Virus record (IMG/VR): IMGVR_UViG_3300002460_000037
Coordinates: 1-56,640 of that record
Length of the DNA stretch: 56,640 nt
Strand: one strand, 5' to 3'
DNA from: a virus
The notes beneath the pieces are model-generated. The model worked only from the letters and a program-made list of their open reading frames with translations, was not told the origin of the DNA and did not search any database. Made by a program: the position numbers and the translations under genes. This document shows, one piece after another, positions 3,771 through 34,276 of the stretch. The first letter of the stretch is position 1. The number at the start of each line of letters is the position of its first letter.

Positions 3771-5579
3771 TTGGCAACACAGTTTAATCCGCTGGACGAC
3801 CGCAGCCTTAGAAAGCTACGGGACGCGATCAAGTGGTCGCGTCGACAACTGTCGACGTTCACTCGTCAGTACGTCGACAATCTCAAGATGTACGTTGGCA
3901 AGCGGTACGGTCATGGCGGCTCGTCTGGCAAGATGCCGTTGAACATGGCTCGGCTGGCCGTCGACGTATGGCAGCGGAAGCTGGTCACGAAATCACCGGA
4001 AGTTTTGGCGATCACACCCAACCCGCTAATCAAGCCTGGTGCCCATTTGTTGGAAATGGGAATGGCGGTCCTGCTGCGAGAGATCAATTTCGCCGAGTCG
4101 TTACAGGAAGTGACGAAGCTCGCATTGCTGGGATTCGGCGCGATGCGCGTGGGGCTCTCGCCGCGTGTTCCATACGGTCATCCGAATTACCTGTTCGACC
4201 CCGGGCAACCGTACGCCGATCCAATTCTGTGGGAGAATTGGGTTCACGATTTCAATGCCCGCCGCAAAGACGAGTGGGATTATGCGGGCGATAAGTCGTT
4301 GCTTGATTACGAAGAAATCATGGAGAACCCGGAGTTGGATGAACGCGCGAAGCGTAACATCGACCGGGAATGGAGACAGGGTGACGACGACGACTTTGGA
4401 GAAGGCAAGGAAATCGCGTCGTCAATTTCCAAGGAGGACGACGTATTCAAGCACGACGAAGGGGAATACCGTCAGCGAGTCGAAGTGTGGAACCTTTGGC
4501 TTCCGATGGATAACTTGGAAGTCCAACTCCCAGTTCAGAACGATTGCCCGCCGTTGCTCATCAAGGAGTTCGAGGGTCCAGATAATGGACCGTTGCATTT
4601 GCTTTCGTTCTGCCAAGTGCCCGGTAACGTCATGGGTTCGGACCCAACGTCACTCCTATACGACATGAACGATTTGCTGAACAGGATGTTCGTCAAGATC
4701 GGACGGCAAGGGGAGCGTCAGAAGACGCTGCTGATGGTTGACCCGGTGGCAGCTGGCGATGGCACTATCCAGCGGATCAAGGATGCTTCGGATGGCGACA
4801 TTATCACCGCCACGCGGCCCGAAGCGGCCAAGGAAGTTGGCAATGGTGGCGTCAATCAGAATTCGATGGCTTTGACAGTCTGGTTGCGTCAGATGGCATC
4901 CTACATGGGCGGCAACATCGACTTGCTCGGCGGTCTGTCGAGTCAATCGCCAACAGCTCGTCAGGACCAGATCCTTTCCGAGTCGGGTAGTGAACTCGTT
5001 TCGTACATGCAAGGCGAGGTTGAGACTTTCACGACTCGCGTGTGTCAGGATCTTGCGGGCCTCTTGCACCGTGATCCGATCTTGACGCTGACACTGACGC
5101 ATCACGTGCCTGGCACGGATATCGAGATTCCGTTGCGGTATGGTCCGGAGGAACGCGACTGGGATCTGTACGAGGCGACAATCCAGATCATTCCGTACAC
5201 GCTACGGTCGCAGAGTCCGGAACAGAGATTGACCAAGATCCTTCAGATTGTGACGCAAGTCATTGGTCCGCTCATGCCACTGGCGATGCAACAGGGTCAG
5301 CAGTTGAACATGGCCGCGTTGCTGGCATTGATCGCGAAGTATTCCAACCTGGAGGAATTGAACGATCTGTTCGTGAAGTCGGGGATGCCTCCGATGGGTC
5401 AGCAAGGTGGTGGTCCAGAACGGCCTGGCATGCCGTCCAATAGCGAGCGCCGGTACGTGCGGGAGAATGTTTCAGGTGGAGGGACGGCTAATGCGCGTGA
5501 TTCTGTCTTGATGCAAACTCTCTTGGGTGGAAACTCACAGGTTACTCCGCAGCAGGTAGCTTCCGCGAGTATTGTCTAA
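3771..5579 (+). CDS. Portal protein
   Basis: Dodecameric head vertex ring through which DNA enters and leaves the capsid. 602 residues, the usual size for podovirus portals. The start is TTG, chosen because AAGGAG lies at normal spacing and it immediately follows the previous gene. Portal-like features include a helical N-terminus, the core stretch LLMVDPVAAGDGT, the region MASYMGGNIDLLGG, a helix starting SPTARQDQILSE, and a Gln/Pro/Gly-rich C-terminal tail. It is directly followed by a small gene and the scaffold and capsid genes, the canonical order. Identification rests on sequence resemblance and synteny. Confidence 0.88.
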   Translation: MATQFNPLDDRSLRKLRDAIKWSRRQLSTFTRQYVDNLKMYVGKRYGHGGSSGKMPLNMARLAVDVWQRKLVTKSPEVLAITPNPLIKPGAHLLEMGMAVLLREINFAESLQEVTKLALLGFGAMRVGLSPRVPYGHPNYLFDPGQPYADPILWENWVHDFNARRKDEWDYAGDKSLLDYEEIMENPELDERAKRNIDREWRQGDDDDFGEGKEIASSISKEDDVFKHDEGEYRQRVEVWNLWLPMDNLEVQLPVQNDCPPLLIKEFEGPDNGPLHLLSFCQVPGNVMGSDPTSLLYDMNDLLNRMFVKIGRQGERQKTLLMVDPVAAGDGTIQRIKDASDGDIITATRPEAAKEVGNGGVNQNSMALTVWLRQMASYMGGNIDLLGGLSSQSPTARQDQILSESGSELVSYMQGEVETFTTRVCQDLAGLLHRDPILTLTLTHHVPGTDIEIPLRYGPEERDWDLYEATIQIIPYTLRSQSPEQRLTKILQIVTQVIGPLMPLAMQQGQQLNMAALLALIAKYSNLEELNDLFVKSGMPPMGQQGGGPERPGMPSNSERRYVRENVSGGGTANARDSVLMQTLLGGNSQVTPQQVASASIV

Positions 5580-16559: not shown

Positions 16560-18223
16560 TGGCTCGCCAGATCGTATACCAGCATATACCGTTCCCGAAA
16601 AAGGGCCTTGACGAAGGGAATGCCTACTACGACCAGCCGAAGGGAACGTGCCGTGAAGTCCAGAACATGCGGCCTTACGATCCGGTCAGTGGTCGTTTGC
16701 GTGGCGGGCAGCGAGGGGGCCTGACAAAGTTCACAGTCTCTAGTGCTGGGGCTGTCTGTCAGGATCTGAATCAGGTCACGTCCATTTCTACTGCAGCCGC
16801 ATCGACATCGTCGTTGGCCATTCGCACTGTGTTGGGGTGCTTGGTGGTTGACGGCGACATACAAAGTTTCACGTCGGCGGCCAGGACGGCTGCGACCGGA
16901 GGAACAAATGTTCTCGATCCGAATGCCCCTGTCATTTTTTCCGCTGAGTCACAGGGAATTCTCTACTTCGCGGATGGGGTGAATTACACGAAGTGGACGG
17001 CATCCACGAATACGGCTTCAGCCTGGACGGCGAGCAGCGGGACGCTCCCGGCAAGCGGAGCGGAGAAGCCGCGGTTGATCGAATTATGGCGAGGCAGGAT
17101 CGTCTTGGCTGGGATTAAAACTGACCCACACAATTGGTTCATGGCGGAGAAGGACGATCCGACCAACTTCAATTATGCGCCGGATCCGACAACGGAACTT
17201 CAAGCGGTTGCCGGCAGCAACTCGCCGGCGGGTCTTATTGCCGAGCCAATCATGGGGATCATTCCGTATAGCGAGGATCTGTTGATCTTTGGTTCGGATC
17301 ATTCCATGTGGGCATTGAACGGCGATCCGATGGCCGGTGGCCGAATTGTGCAGATCAGTGGAATTACCGGCTTGGCTTGGGGACGGGCGTGGTGCAAGGC
17401 ACCTGGCGGGGTTGTGTACTTCTTCGGGTCGCGCGGCGGCGTGTACCGGATGACCTCCGGTTCCGGCTTAGAACGCATCACGGCTAGGCGGTTGGATGAA
17501 CGATTGGCGAACATCGACTTGAACAATTACATCGTGAGAATGGCTTGGAACGATCGGGAGATTGGTGTCCACGTCTTTATCACGCCGTTGGCGCTTCAGA
17601 TCGCCGAGCATTACTTCTACGACGTGCGGACGGATTCATGGTGGAAGGATAAGTTCAACAACGTGCAGCATTCTCCGGTAGCTGTTCACGTTTTCGACGG
17701 TGACATGATCGACGATCGGAGGATCTTGATCGGCGGCAAGGACGGCTGGATCAGGTATTGGACGACGGACGGTCTTACAGACGACGGGACTGCTATTGAA
17801 AGCAACGTCTTGCTGGGTCCGATCATGGCTCGCGATGAGAGCGGCGTGCAATTACCGTTCATTCTTTCCGAGTTGCAGATCACGTTGGCCGAAAACAGCG
17901 ACACGATCAGCTACGAGGTCCATGCCGGAGATTCCGCCGAGGAGGTATTCTCTTCGGCCAATCAATCTTCAGGATTTGTATTGACGGAAACTGACGGCAA
18001 AATCGTCCTGGAGGATGGCACGGGGTTTGTGACGTTGGAAGGAGAGCTTGTGGACGCTGACGGCACTTGGTCGCCGATCACGAGCGATGCCGTGCAGCCG
18101 AGGTTGCGGGGTTACGCCGCTTACGTGCGGCTGAAGCACACTGCAGACAACTCGCGTTGGGCGATGGAGGAATTACAGGCCAAGTTGGCCGTCATAACGA
18201 CATCCAAGAGAAGGATCTTCTGA
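16559..18223 (+). CDS. Tail nozzle / packaged-DNA stabilisation-like protein
   Basis: 554 residues, TAATG-coupled to the previous gene. All-beta propeller-like sequence with repeated short strands and characteristic motifs (GLDEGNAYYDQPKGTCREVQ near the N-terminus, YSEDLLIFGSDHSMW, GGVVYFFGSRGGVYR, FYDVRTDSWW). This pattern resembles the P22 gp10 / T7 gp12 type nozzle proteins that form the distal part of a short tail and hold the packaged DNA. Position after the adaptor supports it. C-terminal residues 430-554 are a separate beta domain. Confidence 0.72.
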   Translation: MARQIVYQHIPFPKKGLDEGNAYYDQPKGTCREVQNMRPYDPVSGRLRGGQRGGLTKFTVSSAGAVCQDLNQVTSISTAAASTSSLAIRTVLGCLVVDGDIQSFTSAARTAATGGTNVLDPNAPVIFSAESQGILYFADGVNYTKWTASTNTASAWTASSGTLPASGAEKPRLIELWRGRIVLAGIKTDPHNWFMAEKDDPTNFNYAPDPTTELQAVAGSNSPAGLIAEPIMGIIPYSEDLLIFGSDHSMWALNGDPMAGGRIVQISGITGLAWGRAWCKAPGGVVYFFGSRGGVYRMTSGSGLERITARRLDERLANIDLNNYIVRMAWNDREIGVHVFITPLALQIAEHYFYDVRTDSWWKDKFNNVQHSPVAVHVFDGDMIDDRRILIGGKDGWIRYWTTDGLTDDGTAIESNVLLGPIMARDESGVQLPFILSELQITLAENSDTISYEVHAGDSAEEVFSSANQSSGFVLTETDGKIVLEDGTGFVTLEGELVDADGTWSPITSDAVQPRLRGYAAYVRLKHTADNSRWAMEELQAKLAVITTSKRRIF

Positions 18224-21039
18224 TGTCGGAACCCAGTAGTTGGCCATTCTCGAATTACAACGTGTTTGGCATCGTGAACGGTATCTCCGATGCCCGGGTC
18301 AGGGAAGTCTTGAACCGTACGTTCGCTGGCCGGGCTGTCAAATTGGCCAGCACGCTTTACGTGTACGGCGGGAACGCCAACAGCGCGGCATACACATGGC
18401 TCTTGGCCGAGACGGGTACTCTGAACACGCAGACGGCCCTGATTATCAACACGGTCACTGAGACGGGCTTTGGGTTGATTGTTGGTGGTACGGGAGTGAT
18501 CGAGGTAGGAGCCAGTGCCACTACCACCGATTTTGAGGCGATCATGGAATGTGTGTCGACGACGTTGGCACACGTTTCGTGCTACCGGGACAACACGAAG
18601 ACGTTGATTGGGTCCAGGATTGACACGGCGGGTGCTTTCACGAGCTACGTGAATCCGTCTGGCGTTGCCACTCCAGCGGCGGACAGGGTGGCTGTTGGCG
18701 GGTACGAGCAGACTGGCGTCGATACGCTGGTAGCCGTGTTTGACGACGGCACGACGCGTACGCTGGCGAGGAAGGATGTGACGATCAGTGGCCCGTGGAC
18801 GACAGGGTCAGTGCTGTTTGCTGGAACGTTAGGGTTTGCAACAGAGGATGCGAGCAACTTCTTCTGGGATGACACGTTGAATGAGTTGGTTGTCGGTGGT
18901 GTATCTGGACTAGCCAAAGGCACTTTTTATCCAACCGCCGCTGAAAAAGGAATCGTAGTCAAAGGAGCCACCAGCCAATCCGCCAACCTCTTTGAGTCGC
19001 AGATTAGCACAGGCGCAATCAGAGCTAGGATTAACAACGTCGGGTCGTTCAGTTCAGATCAGGGCTTAACACGGTGCGAGTTTTTTGGGCAAGATGCCGG
19101 AATTGGGGCAAGCAATATAGGAGTCGACAACACAGGATTAGGGTATGGAACTCTCACCGCTAACACATCGGGCAATCAGAATGTGGCAGTTGGTGCGTTC
19201 GCTCTCATCGCTAACACATCGGGCAATCAGAATGTGGCAGTTGGTGTGTTCGCTCTCACCGCTAACACATCTGGCAGTAAGAATATGGCAGTTGGTTCCG
19301 AGGCTCTCATAGCCAACACCATTGGCAATTCAAACATGGCTTTGGGAACGGAGACTCTCCGCGCCAACACCACTGGCAGTGACAACGCAGCTGCGGGGAC
19401 TAACGCTCTCCGCGCCAATACCACAGGAAGCCAAAACATCGCTATTGGGTCGGAAGCTCTTACCGTCAAAACTACTGGCGATAATAACATAGCAGTGGGG
19501 TATCGGTCTCTCTACACCAACATCACTGGCGCTAACAACCTAGCCGTGGGGCATCAAGCTCTCTTTGGAAACAAGGCTAATGATAACCTGGCCGTGGGGT
19601 ACCAAGCTCTCTTATCAAACAACACGGGCAGTAGCAACCTGGCCGTGGGGTATAGGGCTGGCTACGGCGATGGGACAGTCGATCAGCAAACTTCTGTCGA
19701 TACGTATGCCACATTTATTGGCTACAAAGCTTCACGCGACGCATCAATCCCTAATACAACAGTCCTAACGAACATCACCGCAATCGGGAAGAACGCCAAA
19801 GTTGGACAGGACAATTCGATTGTTCTTGGTGGCACGGGAGCGGACGCGGTAAAGGTAGGCATCGGAGATGTCTCACCCGATGCGCAACTAGACATTCAAA
19901 TTGCCGCTGCGACAAACATTGGATTCATCGTCCAAGCCGCCGCCTCCCAAACCGCTAACATCCTGGAACTTCAAGAATCAGATGGCTCTATCTTTGTAGC
20001 CTCTGGTGACGGTTTAGGTGGCTCTGAGTTCGTAATCAACGAACAAGGAGAGGATATTGATTTTCGCATTGAAGGAGTGGGAGCCGCAAACGCCTTCTTC
20101 GTGCAAGGAAGCGACGGCAACGTTGGCTTCGGGATGACTTTACCCAATCAGAAACTCACCATCGAAGGCACCCTATCCCTTAAGGAACAAGCCGCAGCCA
20201 ACGCTGACACCGCTGCCTATGGGCAGATTTGGGTCAAGACAGCCACGCCTAATCAACTCTGGTTTACGGATGACGCTGGAACTGATGTACAGCTCGGAGT
20301 CTCCAGTATTACCGGAACGGACACGCATGTCCTATTCTTCGACGGAGCTAATAATCCTGCAGGCGAAGCGGGAATGACCTACAACAAGACAACCGACAAG
20401 CTCACCCTCGCGGGAAGGCTTGGCTTGACCGCCGCAGCAGGCTCAACAACAGACGGGGATACGTGGAATGATTCCACGCAGAAGGGAATACAGGTCTACG
20501 AAGCGGGAATCGAGCAGACGCTTCTGGGGGTCATTTTTTCAGCCACCGCTGATGCCACCGCTGATGCCGCTACGGAAGAAACGCTCATCGGCACAGGGGT
20601 AGGGACAACCACGCTTCCCGCCAATTTCTTCGCCGTGGGCAAGACTGTTCGCATCAAAGCTTACGGGCATCTCACTTCTTCCATAATGAACGGTCCATTT
20701 GAAGTAAAGCTCAAGTTGGGAGCGACGGAGATAGCGACGATTGGTTCCATGACACCACCCTCTGCGGCATCTTCGGCGGGCTGGGAACTGGAGGCCGTTA
20801 TCACTTGCCGGACGACAGGGGCGACAGGAACCGTGTTTGTTCAAGGCCGGATGCTCGTCCATGACAATGGCGGGTCGTCATTCCTGCCGTTTTGCTTTTG
20901 GCTGACCAATGCGGCTACTGACACCATAGACACGACAGCTTCGCTTGCTTTAGGGCTCGGCTCGACTTCCACCGATGACGGAATGGGGGCATTTACTTCG
21001 CTGACGTGCACCAATTTAATGTTGGAGGTTCTTAACTGA
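18223..21039 (+). CDS. Large tail fibre with 17-residue repeats
   Basis: 938 residues starting at ATG 18223, overlapping the previous stop (TGATG). The N-terminal 220 residues match the local gene style and probably attach to the tail. From about residue 225 (nt ~18,900) codon choice shifts to more A/T-ending codons, suggesting a later-acquired shaft. Residues 308-476 are ten tandem 17-residue repeats of the 'xAL.ANT.G.xN.AVG' type also seen in trimeric adhesins and phage fibres. The C-terminal 250 residues form a beta-rich tip (KVRIKAYG-like strands, then LALGLGSTSTDDG). Likely trimeric receptor-binding fibre. No endosialidase or chaperone motif was recognised. Confidence 0.75.
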   Translation: MSEPSSWPFSNYNVFGIVNGISDARVREVLNRTFAGRAVKLASTLYVYGGNANSAAYTWLLAETGTLNTQTALIINTVTETGFGLIVGGTGVIEVGASATTTDFEAIMECVSTTLAHVSCYRDNTKTLIGSRIDTAGAFTSYVNPSGVATPAADRVAVGGYEQTGVDTLVAVFDDGTTRTLARKDVTISGPWTTGSVLFAGTLGFATEDASNFFWDDTLNELVVGGVSGLAKGTFYPTAAEKGIVVKGATSQSANLFESQISTGAIRARINNVGSFSSDQGLTRCEFFGQDAGIGASNIGVDNTGLGYGTLTANTSGNQNVAVGAFALIANTSGNQNVAVGVFALTANTSGSKNMAVGSEALIANTIGNSNMALGTETLRANTTGSDNAAAGTNALRANTTGSQNIAIGSEALTVKTTGDNNIAVGYRSLYTNITGANNLAVGHQALFGNKANDNLAVGYQALLSNNTGSSNLAVGYRAGYGDGTVDQQTSVDTYATFIGYKASRDASIPNTTVLTNITAIGKNAKVGQDNSIVLGGTGADAVKVGIGDVSPDAQLDIQIAAATNIGFIVQAAASQTANILELQESDGSIFVASGDGLGGSEFVINEQGEDIDFRIEGVGAANAFFVQGSDGNVGFGMTLPNQKLTIEGTLSLKEQAAANADTAAYGQIWVKTATPNQLWFTDDAGTDVQLGVSSITGTDTHVLFFDGANNPAGEAGMTYNKTTDKLTLAGRLGLTAAAGSTTDGDTWNDSTQKGIQVYEAGIEQTLLGVIFSATADATADAATEETLIGTGVGTTTLPANFFAVGKTVRIKAYGHLTSSIMNGPFEVKLKLGATEIATIGSMTPPSAASSAGWELEAVITCRTTGATGTVFVQGRMLVHDNGGSSFLPFCFWLTNAATDTIDTTASLALGLGSTSTDDGMGAFTSLTCTNLMLEVLN
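19144..19650 (+). repeat. Ten tandem 51-bp coding repeats in tail fibre
   Basis: Units of 17 codons (one of 16) encode variants of LTANTSGNQNVAVG-type beta turns. The first copies (19150-19260) are nearly identical at DNA level and diverge downstream, so the array has recently expanded at its 5' side. Confidence 0.85.
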
Positions 21040-22257: not shown

Positions 22258-23580
22258 ATGCCAATCACTGTTCAACATGGGACGTCCTTGCTCGGCGGTT
22301 ACGGGCGAGCGATGGGTCGGAATGCGCGAGTCAAGAGCCAGACGGAAGCATTGGATGAGTTTGGCAGGATCCTGTCGCAAGGGATGCAGAGGGGTCAGGA
22401 ACTTGAGCGGCAGAAGGAATTCGCCGGATTTCAGGACAAGCTTTTTGGAGAACGCGAGTTAGCGAGGGACGAAAGGCAATCCGGGTACGCCGCTGAGGAA
22501 AACAGGATGCGTTACCTCCGCAATCAGGACGCCATGTTTAACAAACAGTTGGATCAAATCCATCAAATGTCATCCAGGTTCGATCAGCCTGGACAAGAGG
22601 AGTATTCGGGAACCATCGGAAACCTAAGTGCATTGGACAAGGAATACGCACGAGGAAAGATCCCGGAGTCGGAGTATCTCCAGGCGAGGATGGAAGTCGC
22701 TAGGCCACTCATTAATAAAAACTGGGGCAAGCATCTCAAGAACCAGCCAGGAGACTTTGTAACCGAAGGGCTTGATCGGTATCAGGTCCAGCCTGACCTC
22801 ACACTGAAGCGAGTGGGATTGGACCCGAACGCCACTCCGGAAGCTCTTCAGGCGTATGTAGGGTCGCGATCTGGCACAACTCCTGAAGGCATTCCGTACT
22901 TCGTCAAGCCGGATGGCGAGATCAAGTTTGGGAAGGCCGAGTCAACCCAGACGCCAGGTCCCAAGGACCGCTTGCAATACCGCGAAGCCGCCAGGGATCT
23001 ATTGCGGGAGCAGGGCGATTACAACGAAACGCAAGTGGAAGAGTTGGCTCGAAAATGGATGGCCGTTGACTTTGGCTTGCCAATGCCGCAATTGCCACCG
23101 TCGATTTCGCAATCAGGCGGTGCCCAACGCAGCAAAGGTGAGGCGTTCTCCAATTGGATCCGCGCCGCCCAGGAGCTGGCCATATCGCAGGGAAACATGC
23201 CTGCGGCGCTACGGATCGCACAGCTGGATCAAGATCCAGATAGTGTCATGGAGGCCCAGAAGCTTCCCGCCGATGTCCAGCAGCTCTTGATTGATGCACA
23301 CAAGGCTCAGAAATCCGCTCCCCAGTCGCAAGGTCAACAGCGGAGTTTCATGCAGCAGCCGCAAGGCCAAGACGTCCAATCCGCTAGACAGGCTGCTTAC
23401 TCCAACGCACAGAAAAGCGGATTCAGCCGAGAGGATGTGGACCGGGCGGTGAACACGCTGGCGAGGATGAAGCAGTACAAAGGTTTTGATCCCGCTAAGA
23501 TAACGGATCCACGAATCAAAGCAGCCTGGGACAGAATACAAAAGATTGCTGACGCCGCCCTTGGACGAGGGTCGCAATAA
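22258..23580 (+). CDS. Internal virion / ejection protein (putative), 440 aa
   Basis: Gene starts 8 nt after the previous stop. Predominantly helical with Gln/Arg/Glu-rich segments (QSQ..LDEFGRILSQGMQRGQ, ELERQKEFAGFQDKL), a Pro/Gln-rich C-terminal part, and a final helix (GFSREDVDRAVNTLARMKQ). No signal peptide or enzyme motif. Its place immediately before the polyvalent giant suggests that it is packaged in the head and injected with it. Confidence 0.6.
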   Translation: MPITVQHGTSLLGGYGRAMGRNARVKSQTEALDEFGRILSQGMQRGQELERQKEFAGFQDKLFGERELARDERQSGYAAEENRMRYLRNQDAMFNKQLDQIHQMSSRFDQPGQEEYSGTIGNLSALDKEYARGKIPESEYLQARMEVARPLINKNWGKHLKNQPGDFVTEGLDRYQVQPDLTLKRVGLDPNATPEALQAYVGSRSGTTPEGIPYFVKPDGEIKFGKAESTQTPGPKDRLQYREAARDLLREQGDYNETQVEELARKWMAVDFGLPMPQLPPSISQSGGAQRSKGEAFSNWIRAAQELAISQGNMPAALRIAQLDQDPDSVMEAQKLPADVQQLLIDAHKAQKSAPQSQGQQRSFMQQPQGQDVQSARQAAYSNAQKSGFSREDVDRAVNTLARMKQYKGFDPAKITDPRIKAAWDRIQKIADAALGRGSQ

Positions 23581-23590
23581 AGAGAACATC

Positions 23591-26500
23591 ATGCCTAACG
23601 CCTGGGAACTCCTAGACCTATTCCAGGGGGGCCAGGCTTCTGGCCTTCCTCAAAGCAATGTCGTCACTCCGAGCCCGCAAGGCGGCTCTCCTTGGGAACT
23701 CCTAGACCTATTCCAAGGGGGACAGGCCCCTCCCAGCGAGCCCGAGCAACCGGACCTTGGTCCCATCGAGGGCGTCCGCCGCGGTCTAGTTCGAGGCGGA
23801 CAGGGTATTGTCGGTGGCATAGGCGGATTGATCGAGGGGTATCAAGACACAGCGAATGCGTTTGATATTTGGCTGGCAAATAAGCTTGGCGTTCAGGCGG
23901 ATCCGGCGGTTCAAGCTGTCATCAACGACCGCAGGCAGCTTGCCGAAGATAGTCGCGAGTTTCAACGCGGAATACGAAGGCGAGCCGAAGATCCAACCGA
24001 TCTTGGAAAATCGACTTCAGCGGGTGGTTTCAATCCCGCCTCTTGGCGATGGTGGACGGAGAATGTCTCCGAAGCCGTTCCTCAGTTGCTGGGTCAAACA
24101 GCGGTAGCGGCTGCTACTGGCGGTGGCAGCCTTCCCGCGCAAATAGGGACGTTCGCCGCCACGGGTGGTGCTTTGGAAGCCGGAGGGACTTACAGTGCGG
24201 CCAGGGAACGCATGGAGGGAAAAGGCATTCCCCAAGATGAAGCCATGCGGAGGGCACTAGCGGAAGCTGGGACGTCCGGGGCGATCAACGCCGCCATTGA
24301 AGTTGGCCCCGGTTGGGCTGTTGGAAAACTGCTTGGCAAGAGCGCTCTGTCCCCAGCAAAGCGTCTAGCGGGCCGTGAGATCGCCAAACGCTGGTTGGCC
24401 GTCACAGCCGGAGAGGGCGGCGAAGAGGCCACACAGCAAGTCGTGAGCGACACGGCGCAGTGGCTGGCCGAGAATGACCCGGAAGCGAAGCCAACTTTTG
24501 ACAAGTGGCGGGAGTATGCTGGTGCCGGTTTGATTGGAGCGGCTGCCGGTGCTGGCTTGGGTGGCGTTTCGACGGTTGGCGACATTGCCGAGGCATTTAC
24601 TTCGCCGGCACAGCCCTTAAAGGTGCCAATTCCAGATGCTGGTGGAACGCCTCCGGCTGGAGCCGCACCGACACCGCCACAACCTGGAGTTCAGCCAGGG
24701 GAACCACCCGCGGGAGCCGCACGCACACCGGAACAGATCCAGCGAGCCTTGGCCGAGGACTTCTACGGATCGCCGGAAATCACGGCTACTGCTTGGGCGG
24801 ACAAGAACCCCGAATTGGCTGCGAAGCTTGTTGCTGGTCGTCGATACTCTTCACGAGTCTTTGAGGAGGTCGGATTGCCGAAGATGTCCGCCAGGGAGGG
24901 TGATACCGAGAAACGCAGGCAGTGGTTACGAGCCGTTGAAACCCATCTATCGAAAGGAGCGACAGTTGAAACAGAAGCCGAAGAGACGCCTCCGAAAAAG
25001 GAAGTTCCTTCTCCTGACATCACTGGGGTTGCTGCCAAACCCGGTGCTGTGGTGCCCTCCGCTCCAGCCGCGGAAGCTGGCTTGGCCATACCCCAGGTCG
25101 ATCAGCAAGCCGAGCCGGTGGCCGTAGAGCCGCCAAAGCTGAAAGGTATCAAAAAGAAGCCAGCCGAAGCGGCATCGCCAAAGAAGAAGGGAATCAGGAA
25201 GCTAGAAAGCCAAACGATAGGAAAGAATGCGGCAGGGCAAGATGTCTTTGAGGACGCCAATGGCATTCGTTCGACGATCGAGAACGGTATTCGTTCGACC
25301 GAACCTGTCCAGATCATCCCAACGCAGCAGGGAGTTCAATACGCTCCTCGATCTCCGCGTGATACCCAGTTTGAAGTGGCTGCCACCGTGTCGCAGGCTC
25401 CGCCTCTTGGACCGCTTGTCATTAAGCCGATCTTTGGCGGACCAGAAACCAAACTCGAAACCAAGAAGCCAAGCATTGAAGTCATTGAGTCGCCAGGCGC
25501 GGCAGCGGATAGATTCCCTGAAGGAACTCCGGTCGAATACGACTGGCGCGGAAAGCGTGTTCAAGGAGTCAGTAAAGGGCGCCGCGGCGACTTCCTTGTC
25601 GTGTCAACTGATAAAGCTCATATCAATCACGAGATTGATGCTTCTCGTGGAAACGTGCTTGCTGTTGAGGAACCAGTCGATGTACCTCCGCCGACCAAAG
25701 AGCAACCGCAACTTCCACCATCTGGGGTGGAGACGCCTCCGGGTGTTGGTCCGAGTGATAGTGGCGATGTCGTACCTCCAGTTCAAAAGCCTGGAGTAGA
25801 GCAACGAGATTACGGTACGGTTGAAAAACCAAGTCGAGTAGCGCTTGGGGATCACTTTGGCGAACGGCTGACAAGTGGGGCGAAGTACGGAACGATTCTG
25901 GAAGCCAGATCGGAAGCTGGGGAAAAGCTTGGCGGCAAGGTAACGCCTGGAACGCCAACTGCCAAAGAGGTCGACGAGGCTGTCGAGCTTGGTGTCGTCA
26001 AGGCCGCAAAGGCTGTGGTAGCCGAAGGTGATGACGAATCAGATACGTACGATCGGATGGTCGACCTGTACGAGCGGCAGCCGAATCTTTCCACTCGCAC
26101 TTCGACGAGTATTTCCCAGCAAGCGTACAGCACGCCAGCTCCGTTGGCTTATCTCGCTTCACGCTTGGCGAATGTCACTTCGGACAAATCGGTTTACGAT
26201 GCGACTGCCGGCAACGGAATGCTGCTGGTGGCAGCCGATCCGAGCAAAGCGGTGGCCAATGAATTGAACGCCTCTCGCGCCGAGTCCCTGAAGTCGCAGG
26301 GGATTGCCACAACGACCAACGACGCGACAGATTATCGGCCATCGCAAGAGATTGATTCGATCATCCTCAATCCGCCGTTCGGAACCGTTAGAGACGAGAG
26401 CAATCAGACCAAGACATGGACGATTGAAGGGGTCCAAACCAGAGAAGTGGATCACGCCATCGTCATGAATTCCCTGTCGGCGATGGCGGACGACGGATCG

Positions 26501-29500
26501 GCTGTCTTGATCTTGGGAGCCAAGGGTAGTCGGACATCGGAGCCGATTGAACACGCGAAAGCGTACAGTGCGTCTGGCGTGAAGCCTTTCTACGATTGGC
26601 TGTACGACAACTATGGCGTAACGGACCACTTCACCGTATCCGGTGATCTGTATTCTCGGCAGGGCGCGTCATTCCCAGTGGATGTGATCGTTATCAAGGG
26701 GCGCAGTGCGGCGTCCAGGGTCAAGCCTTGGAATATGAAGCAAGGCGGGATTCCTATCCAGTACAATTCATGGCAGGAGTTGAAAGATGCGAAGCTTCCG
26801 CAAAAACGACCAGCAACTAGCGTGGAGCCCGGGACCGTCGAGCCTGGCGGTGCCGCTGCACCCACAGGACAAGACGTTGACGTGGGAACAGTACCTAGAC
26901 CGCCTGCGGGAGAGGGTGGAGTCGATGTTGAAGGACGACCAGGACGGGCAGCAGGCATTCAGCCTGCTGTGGGAGGAACGGTGGGGCCGGTATCCGGACG
27001 ACCTGCCGCGGCACCTGGTGAGCGCGGAGTTCGAGGCGCTGCTGAACAGCCACGGGGTGCGCAGGAAAATGTTCCCGATCCGGGTGTCAAGCCAGAGGGA
27101 GGCGGTCGAGTCGATACAGGAACTGGCGAACGTGGAGGATTGGGGGACGCAGCTCCTGCCCTCGAGGGAGTGAAGAAAAAGCTTTCCGATCTGAGTGACG
27201 AGGAGTTGGAAGCCGCGATAACCGAAGGCATTTCTGAAACACCCGCCGAAGCCGAACAAACAAAGAAGGGGATCAAAAAGAAGCCAGCCGAGGAAGCGGC
27301 AGAGCCGAAGAAGAAGGGGATCAAATCCAAAGAGTCCATTCTTTCCGAGGAGACAAAAGCCGCTAGTAAGGATCTGGACGACGCGGCGAAGGCGTTCGCC
27401 GACAAGTACAAGGGCAAGCTATTCACTAACCCGCTCGCCGACCCAGAACTCATTAGGGACGTTGCCAAGTTGACTAGAATGGCATTGCGGGCCGGTTATC
27501 TGACGTTTCGCGATTACACGCGGTACATGGCGGACGCCATTGGAGCGGACCTTACCCGTCGCATTGGACCGGCGATGCAGCGGTCGTGGGATAGCCTGCG
27601 TGCAAAGCTTGACACGGAAATGGATGTGTCATCGAGCGTGGACCAGATTCTTCAGGAGGAGGATTCTGGAGAAACTGAATTCCAGACGACGTACACTCCG
27701 CGATCTGGAAGCGGGAAGATCGGCACTCTCGTACCAGCCAATCTTGCTACTGCGATTCGCAAATCGCTCGATTCACTGGAAAGTGAATACGGAGACCTCG
27801 ACGCCTTTGTTGGCAAAGAGTTGGGGATGACTCCGACGCAGCTCAACAATGCGTTCGCGGCCGAGCAGGTTGACGCCTTAGCATTGGCGATTGGCAATCA
27901 CAAGCGAGGAGCGGCGTTTGTGCTTGGCTGCCAAACCGGTGTTGGCAAGGGTAGGGTCGTCGCTGGGATGATTCGGTACGCCAAGATCAATGGAATGGTG
28001 CCCTTGTTCATCACGGAGAAGCCGGACTTGTTTGGGGACATGGTCCGCGACCTGACTGACATTGGCATGAACGAGCCGCCGTTTGAGATCCTGGTGACGG
28101 GAGACTACACAGGCAAAAACGTTGTGCAACTCCCCGATGGACGGCAGATCAAATCAAGCTCGGACGTGAATCGTGAGAGAGTCTTGGATGCCGTCAGCAA
28201 CTGGGAGGCAACTGGAGAGTTGAAGTCCGGTGATACGGTCTATGACGCCATCTTCACGCAGTATTCGCAGATTCAGCCAATATCCAAAAAAGGCGTGAGC
28301 CTCGAACCGTGGCGTTACGATGTCATTCTCCGGATCGCCCCACGAACGTTCGTTATTTTCGACGAGAGTCACAACGCCGGTGGGTCTGGATCGAAGCGAA
28401 AAACGAAAAAGGAACGCGAGGGTCCGCCGAACAGAGCGAAGTTCCTGCGGTCGGTCATGTCCCAGTTTCAGGGAGTTCTGTACTCTTCGGCGACGTTCGC
28501 CAAGCGGCCTGATGTGATGGACTTGTATTCGCGGACGGACATGGCGAAAGCGGTAAAGAATCTTGAACACTTGCCAGTCGCGATCGAGGAAGGTGGCGTG
28601 CCACTTCAGCAAGTCGTGTCGGAAATGCTGGCTGAATCAGGCCAGTACGTTCGTCGCGAGAAGTCTTTCCAGGGGATAAAGTTTGAGCCTGCGGAGGTGA
28701 ATGTTGATTTGAAAACAGCCGACAATGTGTCGGAAGTATTTCGGTCAATCAACCAATTCGATGTTGCTAAAAAGGATGCTGTCACTGCTATTGACGAAGA
28801 AGTAGTATCGTCAGGAAAGAGATTGGCTGGTGAGAGTGCGACTGGCGACAAAGGCGTGACGAGCACAAACTTTTCGTCCATCTTGTGGAACCTTACTGAC
28901 CAGATGTTGCTTTCGCTAAAAGCCGATCAGACGGCGCAAGCGGCAATCAACGCCATAAAGGCTGGTCAATCTCCGGTCATCGTAGTCGACAACACGATGG
29001 AGTCCGCACTTAATCGGTACGTGGATGCTGGTGGACTGAAGTTTGGCGATCCGATTGATTTCAACTATCGCGACCTATTACTTCATTACCTGGAGCGCAG
29101 TCGGGAAGTCACAATCAAGCACGGGGCTGGCATCCCACCGGAAAGGCACTATCTGACTGACGAGGAACTTGGTCCTGAAGCTGTCGCGAAGTACGAAGCC
29201 TCCAAGAAGCTTATTGGCGAGATCCAGATCAACGCCCCGGTATCTCCGATTGACTGGATCAGGAAGAAGATCAAAGAAGCCGGATACTCCGTGGCGGAAG
29301 TCACTGGCCGTGAAACATTGATTGATTACCGCGACGACGGCAGCATGTTTCTGACGCAGCGGGCTGCCACGGAATCAGGATCGAGAGGCAAGACACGGTC
29401 AATAAAGGCGTTCAATGACGGCAGTGTCGACGTGTTGATCTTGAACCGATCCGGCTCGACTGGGTTGAGCATCCACGCCAGCCAAAAAGTGAAAAACAAA

Positions 29501-32500
29501 AAAACTCGACACATGATTATCTCGCAGCCAGCAAAGAACATTGACGAGTTCATGCAAATGCTGGGGCGAGTTAATCGGACTGGGCAAGTGGTATTGCCGC
29601 AGTACACGCTATTGCTGTCGGACGCTCCGGCTGAGAATCGACCGGCAGCCGTGCTGGTGAAAAAGCTGGCCAGCCTAAACGCCACGGTCACAGGCAAGGC
29701 GACAGGGTCGGTCGGGTTTGATACTCCCGACATCATCAATGAGGTTGGCGATTATGCCGTCGCGCGGTTCATGGAAGACTACCCACAAATGTACGAGGAC
29801 ATCGGGGAGCCGATGGGTGCGTTGGATGGCGATGGATTATTGAAAGATACGGATGACATTGCCAGGAAGGTTACCGGGCGCGTGATTCTTCTGCCGATCG
29901 AGCAGCAACGACAGTTCTGGGATGGCGTGATTGACATCTTCAACTCGCACTTGGCTGAACTGGACAACCTTGGAGAAAATCCACTGGTTGCAAAAACGCT
30001 TGATTTGCAAGCGAAGACTCAGAATCGCATGAAGATTTTCGACGGTCAGGAAGAGTCCACTAATCCTTTCGAGCAGCCCGCCTACCTGGAGACAGTTGAC
30101 GCCAAGCGTATTGGGAAGCCCATGTCGTCCAAGGAAGTGACCGATGCGATCCTAGCGGAGACTGGAGCCAGTGACATCGGCGATGTAAAGTCTAGAGCCA
30201 TGCAAATAGCAAGCGAGTCCGCAGATAAAGTTGAAAGCGATGCCAACTCTTACTTCGATAGTGATATCAGGCCAAAGCTATCCGAAAACAAGCTGGGCCA
30301 AAAGATGACTCAGTTTCTCCGCAGTGTGAAGGCAGTGGCGGAGCATGTGAGAACCTATCCGCCTGGAACTCCTGTATCAATTAATCTGAAAGACCCGGAC
30401 GCGGAAGAGGGGGATGTGTCGTTGGAACGGTTCAACGGAATCGTGATGGGAGTTTACAAAACAGGGAAGGCAAAAAACCCTGTGGCAATGTCGTCATGGG
30501 TTATTGACATCGCAGTCTCTGATGCCGTGCGCAGGATTCGAGTTCCAATTTCTCAAGTTGGAAGCCGAGCAGAAATCATGCTGTCATGGGGCACTCCACT
30601 CGAAAATCGACTAGCGGAATTTGACAAGGCCCAATCGACGTCTCGTGAAGTGCGACACATTGCGACCGGCAATCTTCTGGCTGCTCAAGAACAGTTACGC
30701 GGCAAGCGTGGTCGAATCGTATTTTTCACGGATGACTCCGGCGAAAGCCGCCGTGGAACGCTGATGCCAAGACGGTTTGATGTGCGGGAGTGGCAAGCGG
30801 ATCGTCCGATTGAATTCCAAAGTGTCGACCAAGTGCTGTCGTTCCTCACCAAGAATGGCACCGCATTCTCAGCGGACGGAAATTTCTATGTAGTGAGGAA
30901 TCCAGCAGGAAGCGGGGTGGTGTTCTCCGCCAAGAAGGCCAAGTCGCAGGGCGGCAAGTACACTCTCAATCGCGACATTCTGAATGCCGCTAGTCCGCAT
31001 GAGTTTGTATCAAAGGGCGCTGCATGGATGGAGATGCCCATCACCAACAAACAGCAGACAATCGCCGTTCTAAAGGCCGTGATGGAGATTACTACGCTTC
31101 AAGCGAACACGCAAAAGGACTTGGCTGCCGAAGTAATCAAACCCAAAGAGGAACCGCCAGGCACCGTCCCAGGGGCACAAGCGGAATCTCTCCGTCCGAC
31201 AGGTAAGGCTAGGACAGGTCAGCGGCGACTGACGCGCAAGGACGTAATAGCCGCATTCCCGCAGCGGACCGTCACAAATCTTCCAGGCGGTACGGGATGG
31301 CGTGTGGAAGTTGGCAGCCATCATTTTGACATTCAGGTTGTCGACGAAGTGCCAATCGATTGGGATGCCCTGGAAGCCAAGATGGGTCTAAAAATCCCGG
31401 AAGAGCAACGCGCCGCAATGGCCGCCGCCGGATCGTTCTCCGTGACCGACGAGACCGGGAAGCAGTACAGTGGTCTTGGATTGATTCGTCTGGCAAACGG
31501 CATGGCGACATCTTCGACGCTGCGACACGAAGCCCTTCACTTAGCACGCACGTCCGGCATGCTCAGTCAACGGGAGTGGGATGCGCTCGTCAAGCAATAT
31601 TCTTCCAAGATGCGCTCGATTGCTCAGCAGGAGGAAGATATCGCTTCGGCGCGGGAAGGCGTAGGGCCAGCTTCCACATGGCAGCGGATCGCCGCGTGGA
31701 TCAGAGGCATCCTGTCTAAGTTCGGAATCGGCGAGATTCAAGGGCGGGACGTGTTCCATCAGATGGATGAGGCCGGATTCTGGGACCGGGAAGCCAAGCG
31801 AACAGGAAGCAACACGTCCTACTCGATTCAAAAGATCGGCGACGTACCATTGCGTGGTCGCCCTGACTTAGCCAACCCGGCTAAAGACTTGGGCGTCAGG
31901 GACGTCGTTACTGACGTGGACGAGGAAAGGAATCTGGCTGGAAAGCCTACGCCTCGATCCAGGACCGTTGCGGCAGACGAAGCCACGCAGCGATTAGCAG
32001 CCGATTATTCCGGTGAGCGGCAGAAGTTGCTCGATCGGCTTGCTGATGGCGACACGATGAACGAAGCGGACACGGTTGTCGCGAGGAGAATCATCGACAA
32101 GGAAGGCATCGAGGCTCTCAAGTCAGGCAAGTTGGACGATTTGAAAAAACTTATCGACGGCTATCGGGATGTGCGTGCGGAGCAAGCGAGGGCACTGAGC
32201 CTGCGAGATCCGCTTGAGACGCCAGCCATGCGACGGAAGCGGGCGATCTTGGAAGCGATCTTGAGTTCCGACAACCCCACGAAGATCCTGGAAGCATTGA
32301 AAAATGAAGGTATCGACCTAACGGAGTTGGCTTCCGTATCGGAAGATCCAGCCGCATCGCTTCGCACGTTGGAAGAGACAGTTGCCCGCCATTCGACGTT
32401 TACAGATAAGGCTATCGAATACTGGCGTAACGCGATCCTGTCAGCACCAACCACTCATGCGGCCAACACCATAGGGAACGTTGCCAACACGGCGTGGTAT

Positions 32501-34276
32501 TACACCGCAGAGCGTTTTGTTCAGTCCGCATTGAACACGATCATCAGGAATCCGAAGGGTGCCCAGTGGGGCGAGTACAAACATTTGCTCGCTGGGATCT
32601 TGCCAGGCATGTCACGGGGGATGCGAAACGCCGTCCAGTCTTGGAAGACGGAGCGTTCGGCATTGTCGCACTTCATGGGAGGGGGAAAAATGCAGGAGGC
32701 AAGGATAGCCATTCCTGGCCGGCGTGGAAGATTTATTCGTTCGTTTGGCTATCGTCCGCTGCTGTTTGCGGACGAGTTCGCAAAGACTCTCATCGTCAAC
32801 ATGGAAGTTGGGGCGCAGGCGTACCGGATGGCGAAGGAAGAGGGGTTGTCGGGAGATGCTTTAACGGTTCGCGTCAGGGAATTGGTTGACGACATCGAAT
32901 CTCCAGCGTGGGGCAGCGCAACCGAAATTTCCAGAGAACTAACTTTCCAACAGGGAGGCTCAAAGATATCCAGAAAGCTGAAGAGTATTGCTAAGTTTGC
33001 GCGAGGAAAGTTCAAGCCGCTAACTTTTGTGATTCCGTTCGTCGAGACTCCTGTCAACATATTGGAGGAGGGATTGCGAAAGACTCCCTTGGGTGCGATC
33101 GAGCTGGCTGTCCGCTGGCGTCAGGCAGCCAAGGAAGCTAAGGAAACCGGCTCTCTAGATCCGTACGCTCCTTTGATTGGCCTTGGAGCCCAGCAAGCAA
33201 TAGCGGCTCTTGGAATGTTCCTGTTGTTCATGGGAAACGATGACGATGATCCGTGGATAACAGGTACTTCGCAACGTCGCGGCATCGGCAAGCGGCAGCT
33301 TGAGGAGCGAACCAATCCGCCACTTTCGATCAATCTCGGCAACCGATGGTACAGTTACCAACGAATTGAGCCGTTTGCCACGGCAGTTGCGACGATGGTT
33401 GATATGGCCAGCGCCGCCAAGAAAGGACGGCCATTTGACAAGACATGGGAAAGCATCCTTGGTCAGATAGAAGGAAAGACGTTCCTTCAGGGTATTGGAG
33501 ATGTGATCGAAGCCGTCGACAGTCCCGATCCAAACCGGGCAGTCAAGTGGGCGTCCAAGTTTGCTGTCAGTTGGGCTCCAAATATCATTCGCTCGTCAGG
33601 CAGGTCGATCGACAAAGTTCGTCCAGAGCGAAAGGTGTGGGGAAAGGGGAGTGATCTGTACAAGCGTCTGGGGATCAGGATGGCTCAGCAGACAGAGCTT
33701 GGAATCGTTCCAGACATGCCAAAGTACGACATGTGGGGCAGACTCGTTCCATCGTCAATTAGTCCAGTTCCTGGGACAGATATCGCATGGAGGATTCTTG
33801 TCCCGTCATACACAAAGCATGAGGGTGTTTTCGTAGGCGACCAATTGCTCATGGCGTGGAACCGGAGAAATCCAGACAGCGAAGTGGCTCCAGAGATGCC
33901 AACCCCAACCTACACGTGGGAAAGACAATCAAAAAGCATGACAGATCAGCAGTATGCGGAGTTTTTGCGGATGTCTGGCTCTCTGGCGAGAGAGCGAGTG
34001 TCGCGGATCAAGCCGAACGACAACCCGTCCGAAGCGACGATCGAGAGAATCAAAAGCATAATCGAAACTAGCCGCAGTCAGATCAGGGAGCAACTGGCGG
34101 TCAAATGGAACGGGACGGCCAGGGACACGAGAGATTACAAAGCCAAGCTTCGCCGATCGATTGCTAGTCCGATGCCAACGAGGAAGAGGGGGGAGTCGAA
34201 TGAGGATTGGAATCAGAGAAAAGCGGACGACCGCGACAAGCGAGCCAGGATGAAAGGCTTTCTCAAGAAGAAGTAG
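23591..34276 (+). CDS. Giant polyvalent virion protein: N6-MTase, SBNO helicase, zincin, helical C-terminus
   Basis: 3,561 residues from ATG 23591. The N-terminus repeats WELLDLFQGGQA twice (residues 5-16, 35-46), then a Gly/Ala-rich segment. A gamma-class N6-adenine methyltransferase follows, with DATAGNG (870) and catalytic NPPF (927-930). A low-complexity linker holds a second gene in another frame (26787-27173). The Strawberry-notch-type SF2 helicase shows CQTGVGKGR (1447), DESH (1591-1594), SAT (1633-1635) and QMLGRVNRTGQ (1989). A zinc peptidase motif HEALH (2646-2650) precedes an Ala-rich helical C-terminus (from ~2,900) of the large-polyvalent-protein type. Family knowledge (DarB/LPD-like proteins) says such proteins are packaged and injected to methylate, unwind or protect phage DNA from restriction. 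Lys-rich GIKKKPAE repeats occur near residues 517 and 1227. Confidence 0.82.
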   Translation: MPNAWELLDLFQGGQASGLPQSNVVTPSPQGGSPWELLDLFQGGQAPPSEPEQPDLGPIEGVRRGLVRGGQGIVGGIGGLIEGYQDTANAFDIWLANKLGVQADPAVQAVINDRRQLAEDSREFQRGIRRRAEDPTDLGKSTSAGGFNPASWRWWTENVSEAVPQLLGQTAVAAATGGGSLPAQIGTFAATGGALEAGGTYSAARERMEGKGIPQDEAMRRALAEAGTSGAINAAIEVGPGWAVGKLLGKSALSPAKRLAGREIAKRWLAVTAGEGGEEATQQVVSDTAQWLAENDPEAKPTFDKWREYAGAGLIGAAAGAGLGGVSTVGDIAEAFTSPAQPLKVPIPDAGGTPPAGAAPTPPQPGVQPGEPPAGAARTPEQIQRALAEDFYGSPEITATAWADKNPELAAKLVAGRRYSSRVFEEVGLPKMSAREGDTEKRRQWLRAVETHLSKGATVETEAEETPPKKEVPSPDITGVAAKPGAVVPSAPAAEAGLAIPQVDQQAEPVAVEPPKLKGIKKKPAEAASPKKKGIRKLESQTIGKNAAGQDVFEDANGIRSTIENGIRSTEPVQIIPTQQGVQYAPRSPRDTQFEVAATVSQAPPLGPLVIKPIFGGPETKLETKKPSIEVIESPGAAADRFPEGTPVEYDWRGKRVQGVSKGRRGDFLVVSTDKAHINHEIDASRGNVLAVEEPVDVPPPTKEQPQLPPSGVETPPGVGPSDSGDVVPPVQKPGVEQRDYGTVEKPSRVALGDHFGERLTSGAKYGTILEARSEAGEKLGGKVTPGTPTAKEVDEAVELGVVKAAKAVVAEGDDESDTYDRMVDLYERQPNLSTRTSTSISQQAYSTPAPLAYLASRLANVTSDKSVYDATAGNGMLLVAADPSKAVANELNASRAESLKSQGIATTTNDATDYRPSQEIDSIILNPPFGTVRDESNQTKTWTIEGVQTREVDHAIVMNSLSAMADDGSAVLILGAKGSRTSEPIEHAKAYSASGVKPFYDWLYDNYGVTDHFTVSGDLYSRQGASFPVDVIVIKGRSAASRVKPWNMKQGGIPIQYNSWQELKDAKLPQKRPATSVEPGTVEPGGAAAPTGQDVDVGTVPRPPAGEGGVDVEGRPGRAAGIQPAVGGTVGPVSGRPAAAPGERGVRGAAEQPRGAQENVPDPGVKPEGGGRVDTGTGERGGLGDAAPALEGVKKKLSDLSDEELEAAITEGISETPAEAEQTKKGIKKKPAEEAAEPKKKGIKSKESILSEETKAASKDLDDAAKAFADKYKGKLFTNPLADPELIRDVAKLTRMALRAGYLTFRDYTRYMADAIGADLTRRIGPAMQRSWDSLRAKLDTEMDVSSSVDQILQEEDSGETEFQTTYTPRSGSGKIGTLVPANLATAIRKSLDSLESEYGDLDAFVGKELGMTPTQLNNAFAAEQVDALALAIGNHKRGAAFVLGCQTGVGKGRVVAGMIRYAKINGMVPLFITEKPDLFGDMVRDLTDIGMNEPPFEILVTGDYTGKNVVQLPDGRQIKSSSDVNRERVLDAVSNWEATGELKSGDTVYDAIFTQYSQIQPISKKGVSLEPWRYDVILRIAPRTFVIFDESHNAGGSGSKRKTKKEREGPPNRAKFLRSVMSQFQGVLYSSATFAKRPDVMDLYSRTDMAKAVKNLEHLPVAIEEGGVPLQQVVSEMLAESGQYVRREKSFQGIKFEPAEVNVDLKTADNVSEVFRSINQFDVAKKDAVTAIDEEVVSSGKRLAGESATGDKGVTSTNFSSILWNLTDQMLLSLKADQTAQAAINAIKAGQSPVIVVDNTMESALNRYVDAGGLKFGDPIDFNYRDLLLHYLERSREVTIKHGAGIPPERHYLTDEELGPEAVAKYEASKKLIGEIQINAPVSPIDWIRKKIKEAGYSVAEVTGRETLIDYRDDGSMFLTQRAATESGSRGKTRSIKAFNDGSVDVLILNRSGSTGLSIHASQKVKNKKTRHMIISQPAKNIDEFMQMLGRVNRTGQVVLPQYTLLLSDAPAENRPAAVLVKKLASLNATVTGKATGSVGFDTPDIINEVGDYAVARFMEDYPQMYEDIGEPMGALDGDGLLKDTDDIARKVTGRVILLPIEQQRQFWDGVIDIFNSHLAELDNLGENPLVAKTLDLQAKTQNRMKIFDGQEESTNPFEQPAYLETVDAKRIGKPMSSKEVTDAILAETGASDIGDVKSRAMQIASESADKVESDANSYFDSDIRPKLSENKLGQKMTQFLRSVKAVAEHVRTYPPGTPVSINLKDPDAEEGDVSLERFNGIVMGVYKTGKAKNPVAMSSWVIDIAVSDAVRRIRVPISQVGSRAEIMLSWGTPLENRLAEFDKAQSTSREVRHIATGNLLAAQEQLRGKRGRIVFFTDDSGESRRGTLMPRRFDVREWQADRPIEFQSVDQVLSFLTKNGTAFSADGNFYVVRNPAGSGVVFSAKKAKSQGGKYTLNRDILNAASPHEFVSKGAAWMEMPITNKQQTIAVLKAVMEITTLQANTQKDLAAEVIKPKEEPPGTVPGAQAESLRPTGKARTGQRRLTRKDVIAAFPQRTVTNLPGGTGWRVEVGSHHFDIQVVDEVPIDWDALEAKMGLKIPEEQRAAMAAAGSFSVTDETGKQYSGLGLIRLANGMATSSTLRHEALHLARTSGMLSQREWDALVKQYSSKMRSIAQQEEDIASAREGVGPASTWQRIAAWIRGILSKFGIGEIQGRDVFHQMDEAGFWDREAKRTGSNTSYSIQKIGDVPLRGRPDLANPAKDLGVRDVVTDVDEERNLAGKPTPRSRTVAADEATQRLAADYSGERQKLLDRLADGDTMNEADTVVARRIIDKEGIEALKSGKLDDLKKLIDGYRDVRAEQARALSLRDPLETPAMRRKRAILEAILSSDNPTKILEALKNEGIDLTELASVSEDPAASLRTLEETVARHSTFTDKAIEYWRNAILSAPTTHAANTIGNVANTAWYYTAERFVQSALNTIIRNPKGAQWGEYKHLLAGILPGMSRGMRNAVQSWKTERSALSHFMGGGKMQEARIAIPGRRGRFIRSFGYRPLLFADEFAKTLIVNMEVGAQAYRMAKEEGLSGDALTVRVRELVDDIESPAWGSATEISRELTFQQGGSKISRKLKSIAKFARGKFKPLTFVIPFVETPVNILEEGLRKTPLGAIELAVRWRQAAKEAKETGSLDPYAPLIGLGAQQAIAALGMFLLFMGNDDDDPWITGTSQRRGIGKRQLEERTNPPLSINLGNRWYSYQRIEPFATAVATMVDMASAAKKGRPFDKTWESILGQIEGKTFLQGIGDVIEAVDSPDPNRAVKWASKFAVSWAPNIIRSSGRSIDKVRPERKVWGKGSDLYKRLGIRMAQQTELGIVPDMPKYDMWGRLVPSSISPVPGTDIAWRILVPSYTKHEGVFVGDQLLMAWNRRNPDSEVAPEMPTPTYTWERQSKSMTDQQYAEFLRMSGSLARERVSRIKPNDNPSEATIERIKSIIETSRSQIREQLAVKWNGTARDTRDYKAKLRRSIASPMPTRKRGESNEDWNQRKADDRDKRARMKGFLKKK
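26787..27173 (+). CDS. Nested overlapping gene inside the giant polyvalent gene
   Basis: 128 codons in a different frame within the giant gene's linker. ATG 26787 is preceded by AGGAG at 26775-26779 with a 7-nt gap. By my count about 112 of 128 sense codons end in G or C, and the encoded protein is balanced and helical with hydrophobic spacing (TWEQYLDRLRERVESMLKDD, then FSLLWEERWGRYPDDLPRHL). The host frame here is Gly/Pro/Ala/Val-Arg low complexity, which looks like a by-product. The local DNA is also visibly more GC-rich than its flanks. Together these suggest real selection in this frame. Function unknown; possibly an accessory protein captured with a GC-rich insertion. Not recognised. 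Confidence 0.6.
   Translation: MRSFRKNDQQLAWSPGPSSLAVPLHPQDKTLTWEQYLDRLRERVESMLKDDQDGQQAFSLLWEERWGRYPDDLPRHLVSAEFEALLNSHGVRRKMFPIRVSSQREAVESIQELANVEDWGTQLLPSRE

Follow-up and report, generated by a model that had tools for sequence, protein, structure and literature searches.

Evidence for a conserved protein-coding gene nested in the methylase-helicase linker of DarB-like polyvalent genes

The locus and what its own composition can say

Does an open frame that lies wholly inside a giant viral gene encode a protein of its own, or is it a shadow of the composition of its host? The question arises in the window, by which we mean the whole stretch of DNA analyzed here, 56,640 nt of the virus record IMGVR_UViG_3300002460_000037 (positions 1-56,640). 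Sequence comparison leaves us nearly certain that the frame is a genuine, old and conserved protein-coding gene, which a DarB-like polyvalent gene harbours in its +1 frame.

The nested gene occupies positions 26787-27173 of the plus strand, as do the other features of this paragraph, and encodes 128 aa from an ATG start. Its Shine-Dalgarno (SD) sequence, AGGAG, is at 26775-26779, with a 7-nt gap to the ATG. The whole ORF is contained within the gene of the giant polyvalent protein (23591-34276), whose frame is open from 23546 (23546-34276, 3,576 codons) and whose likely ATG is at 23591. Three Pfam domains are found in the giant protein, N6_Mtase, AAA_34 and Helicase_C_4, the latter two of strawberry-notch type. 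An N6-adenine methyltransferase core lies 5′ of the nested gene (26087-26701), with the motifs DATAGNGM and NPPF, 43-47% identity to relatives in alignment and a PF02384 match (6.5e-5, giant residues 836-898). On the 3′ side is a strawberry-notch-type SWI2/SNF2 ATPase (27896-29785), AAA_34 followed by Helicase_C_4 (PF13872, E=1.3e-19, residues 1451-1722; PF13871, E=4.9e-26, residues 1915-2080). Judged by Pfam, the NPPF motif and alignment, the host is thus DarB-like, an N6-adenine methyltransferase fused to a SWI2/SNF2 ATPase, and the nested ORF occupies the linker between the two parts. There the giant frame encodes a low-complexity Gly/Pro/Ala stretch (26786-27175).

The original prediction had described this ORF from the window alone, and its description was accurate: the ATG, the SD and its gap, the 128 codons and the non-repetitive product are as claimed, nested GC3 is 0.875 (112/128, for a claimed value of about 112), the giant frame is 49% Gly, Pro and Ala at this place, and local GC is above that of the flanks. 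What did not hold is the use of the open frame and the GC3 bias as evidence, because by themselves they do no better than chance in the window. When the amino acids of the giant protein were fixed and its codons resampled, the entire linker was open in the +1 frame in ~10% of trials, and nested GC3 was expected to be 0.864 +/- 0.012. The bias is explained by the amino acids of the giant protein, since the third position of the nested frame is the first position of the giant frame. The giant gene also holds longer +1 ORFs of 163 and 190 aa, of less gene-like composition; located in its N-terminal linkers (24636-25127 and 25227-25799), they are Arg/Leu-rich shadows. Window evidence alone is therefore weak, and the high significance of the nested ORF comes through relatives only. 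Elsewhere in the window, a long protein (18067-21039) carries about a dozen tandem repeats of the type NTSGxxNxAVGxxAL and resembles the head repeats of adhesins and tail fibres.

Homologues in the same linker of related genes

As a single query, the nested protein of the window returned no matches in Pfam, PHROGs, viral contigs, phages or plasmids, because the window copy is divergent. Relatives were instead collected from viral contigs, bacterial genomes, phages and plasmids with the methylase domain of the giant protein; the helicase domain, used as a query, returned no viral loci. The first four distinct relatives, 40-43% identical in the methylase region, all have in the same linker a +1 ORF that is exactly 138 codons long and whose sequence is evidently shared. 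Nearly all surveyed loci share a pattern that starts with M...(A/V)WxP, followed by an LxV strand, a Y/W...L..R/K helix and a C-terminal L..W/L..L helix.

A profile of 87 nested proteins, from which the window was excluded, was searched against 14,971 six-frame segments. It matched the window ORF at E=7.1e-10, and at 101 of 104 loci it detected a homologue of that ORF in this linker; every one of the 101 matches below 1e-3 falls in the +1 frame of the giant gene. Loci that were never part of the profile were matched as well (L069, 4.6e-21; L096, 9.4e-17), including cyanobacterial plasmids (L112, 9.8e-11; L172, 1.2e-9). Two more cyanobacterial plasmids were matched at 2.3e-6 (L173) and, weakly, at 0.014 (L111). 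Among the 88 members, removing in turn each cluster of at least 35% identity still allowed the recovery of 67 at E<1e-3 and of 77 at E<0.05, with the window at 3e-10. As for the three loci without a match, two (L039 and L063) are cut by a contig edge, the nested gene of the L063 contig being located at its opposite end, as locus L162, and the third, L062, is too divergent.

About a hundred related elements from several bacterial phyla, whether phage, prophage or plasmid, thus carry the family; the phages and plasmids among them belong to Pseudomonadota, Cyanobacteriota, Acidobacteriota, Planctomycetota and desulfobacterial lineages. Carriers in bacteria amenable to culture include elements of Paracoccus onchidii, Rubellimicrobium thermophilum and Vibrio ruber and a cyanobacterial plasmid of Picosynechococcus PCC 7003. 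A similarly placed ORF of weak similarity is found in Bacteroides phage BS-TP4 (L110) and in a Thalassospira plasmid (L113). A check for relatives that keep the giant frame while breaking the nested one did not count against the gene.

Some individual loci deserve mention. L062, which lies within the carrier clade, has a nested ORF at 4345-4722 with a good SD (GGAGGA) and no recognizable family similarity; it is either highly divergent or replaced. In L095 and L099 the giant frame stops 379 and 580 codons past the methylase start while the nested ORF is intact, which could reflect a split gene, a frameshift or a sequencing error. In the Gloeobacter morelensis plasmid pGMOR1 (L172, 4689-5138), NCBI annotates the nested ORF (WP_230844304.1) but not the methylase portion of the open giant frame, so that the giant gene is misannotated there.

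Selection, initiation and the case for a gene

Substitutions were counted in 22 disjoint pairs of relatives, with the helicase region of the same pairs as the control of rate; it was preferred to the methylase because the methylase half has often recombined. In the nested region, positions 1/2/3 of the giant codons show 0.307/0.210/0.172 substitutions per site, against 0.156/0.103/0.405 in the helicase region, where the control alignment is poor for one pair of the 22 (L092/L094). The contrast between regions gives a Fisher p=2e-180, a value that assumes independent sites and is to be read as overwhelming rather than literally. The third position of the giant codon, normally the fastest, is the slowest in the nested region (0.17 vs 0.41), and position 1 exceeds position 3 in 22/22 pairs. 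The original prediction had asked for a synonymous-site test of both frames across relatives; giant third positions are slowed and phases reversed in every pair. Substitutions are distributed as in a gene whose reading frame is the nested one: changes synonymous for the giant protein are strongly suppressed, and purifying selection acts in the alternative frame beyond the effect of the host frame. Over the same DNA, amino acid identity is 0.82 in the nested frame and 0.74 in the giant frame.

The nested frame also has conserved initiation signals of its own. An SD match of at least 4 nt precedes 69 of the 88 nested starts, compared with 15% of other +1-frame ATGs at the same loci, and one of at least 5 nt precedes 43 of the 88, compared with 3.0% of this background, so that strong matches are enriched ~16-fold (p=7e-40); starts were picked by rule and partly by hand, with ATG preferred, and these enrichments somewhat favour the hypothesis. 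The start codon is ATG in 85/88 ORFs, and across the 88 members the start lies 640-802 nt downstream of the beginning of the methylase match. A stop codon of the nested frame stands directly 5′ of the ATG in 26/88, and sequence similarity among relatives starts at the ATG.

These observations bear on three ways of doing without an old gene of its own. A chance frame that the GC-rich Gly/Pro/Ala linker happens to leave open would agree with the resampling results and with the other long +1 ORFs of the giant gene, but it would not yield a homologous and conserved product with reversed phases and a conserved SD; profiles with whole clusters left out still recognize the family below 35% identity, and the slow giant third positions exclude that similarity in the +1 frame derives from conservation of the giant frame alone. 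We regard a chance frame as extremely improbable. Ribosomal frameshifting into the +1 frame, which would give the methylase an alternative tail instead of yielding a distinct small protein, draws some appeal from relatives in which that frame is open well 5′ of the ATG (e.g., L003-L006); it fits poorly with an SD and ATG conserved at a fairly fixed distance, with the stops just before the ATG and with similarity that begins at the ATG, and it is very improbable. The original prediction had read the locus as a real overprinted gene captured by insertion into the linker. The gene stands, on homologous ORFs at the same site, phase-reversed substitutions and a conserved SD; the capture does not. 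A recent foreign insertion would account for the local rise in GC and for position-specific GC that is gene-like in the nested frame, but the GC3 is explained by the overlap, the site is the same throughout a large clade, consistent with a single old gain at its base, and no free-standing homologue was found, which leaves recent capture hardly credible. Homology, selection, SD and distribution together lead us to reject the chance ORF, the GC artefact, the frameshift tail and the recent capture.

The protein, its history and known systems

The nested proteins have a median length of 131 aa. Bulky hydrophobic residues make up 32% of the nested frame across relatives vs 11% of the giant frame over the same DNA. 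Most members are acidic (median pI 4.5, median net charge -8); the window copy is mildly so (pI 5.4, charge -4). An AlphaFold2 model from 67 aligned sequences is confident (pLDDT 82.7, pTM 0.77) and mostly helical, with two short strands and about six helices. Foldseek found no relative of this model in PDB or BFVD, and Pfam, PHROGs and NCBIfam gave isolated weak matches of single members only (at most 3 members), none for the window copy; family libraries and fold comparison thus revealed no similarity to proteins of known function. At least in part, the low-complexity linker of the giant protein mirrors the nested gene.

In a helicase tree of 72 proteins, a branch with 98/95 support separates all 64 carriers and 3 weak cases from five fused methylase-helicases that have no nested ORF, namely plasmids of Burkholderia, Pseudomonas, Vogesella and Yersinia and one Acinetobacter phage. 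The nested gene would have been gained once, or lost once, and then kept; the distribution fits one old gain. Free-standing copies, which the original prediction had proposed to seek in other genomes, did not appear in scans with nested proteins, and the nested gene lies within the giant frame at 52/52 checked loci. In several pairs (L056/L071, L023/L065, L066/L079 and L060/L090), the methylase half is ~60-80% identical and everything from the nested start onward, nested gene plus helicase, ~80-95%. This suggests a recombination boundary at the nested start, with methylase modules swapped, and the jump in identity indicates that, in recombination, the nested gene tends to stay with the helicase half. 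In the Persicobacter plasmid pPP10 (L175, 3764-8600), methylase and helicase are annotated as two genes with a 4-nt overlap, without the nested gene.

That arrangement bears on another possible history, in which the nested gene came first and the giant linker originated by read-through of it upon the fusion of separate methylase and helicase genes. The nested frame is indeed the more constrained of the two, and the Persicobacter plasmid shows that separate genes exist; yet this pair has no small gene in between, no free-standing homologue was found, the close non-carriers have a fused gene whose linker is plain, and the absence of a known fold is expected of a gene born by overprinting. We think such an origin unlikely. 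A bolder reading, to which we give somewhat less than even confidence, is that of an undescribed, obligately overlapping family that was born once in the methylase-helicase linker, became a necessary part of that machine and is locked in place by the overlap, the linker sequence being largely a by-product.

As to mechanism, translation of the nested frame would begin within the giant mRNA, with ribosomes entering at the nested SD and ATG, and a soluble, mostly acidic, alpha-helical protein of ~130 aa would be made alongside the methylase-helicase. It may act on the latter, either as an accessory subunit or as a chaperone or packaging helper; such a helper would let the injected giant protein shield incoming DNA from restriction. 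We put this role forward tentatively, as the most likely and most economical one, because the nested protein was never seen apart from that domain pair and its gene tends to follow the helicase half in recombination. Its main rival is direct anti-defence activity, in which the protein, as a DNA mimic or otherwise, would act on host restriction enzymes independently of the giant protein. The acidity of most members and the antirestriction-like host gene (PMC5512222) would suit such an activity, but the mild acidity of the window copy, the lack of a PDB fold match and the absence of nested proteins without a methylase-helicase argue against it, and we consider it rather unlikely. The position in the linker could also matter for coding economy only.

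The host gene has a known counterpart in the DNA methylase-helicase dyad of polyvalent proteins, whose archetype is DarB of phage P1 (Iyer et al. 2017, PMC5512222). In P1, DarB is carried inside the phage head and guards the incoming DNA (PMC5512222, PMC9024508). In both, an adenine methyltransferase is followed by a SWI2/SNF2 ATPase, which in the giant protein described here is of strawberry-notch type. P1 DarB itself showed no comparable +1 ORF in the stretch examined and no profile match, and a search of the text of PMC5512222 returned neither the word "overlap" nor a nested gene. P1 also encodes small proteins such as Ulx, which aids the localization of DarB (PMC9024508); the helper role proposed above for the nested protein would resemble that of Ulx. 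Ulx is likewise a small protein (146 aa) encoded adjacent to darB; unlike the nested gene, it is a separate downstream gene, and no sequence relation to the nested protein was detectable (hhalign probability 0.2%), on which ground we rejected membership of the Ulx family. The nested gene may supply a missing partner for DarB-like methylase-helicase systems.

In the open-access literature we found no report that polyvalent, DarB-like or strawberry-notch genes contain overlapping or nested genes. Virtually all members of a broad clade of phage antirestriction giants have the nested protein, yet it has gone unseen because annotation pipelines discard genes inside larger ones. It provides a well-replicated case of two frames sharing DNA over deep time, one for a folded protein, the other for a linker of low complexity. 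Nested overprinted genes are known in kind; of this family, its setting in an antirestriction giant and its breadth we found no description in that literature. Among phages, gene E within D of phiX174 and Rz1 within Rz of lambda are the familiar examples. As in those pairs, a complete gene with its own initiation signal is read in another frame of a larger gene. Unlike them, the gene presented here belongs to a different protein family, its host is a giant antirestriction-type polyvalent gene in which the overlapped frame is a low-complexity linker, and it is spread over phages, prophages and plasmids of several phyla.
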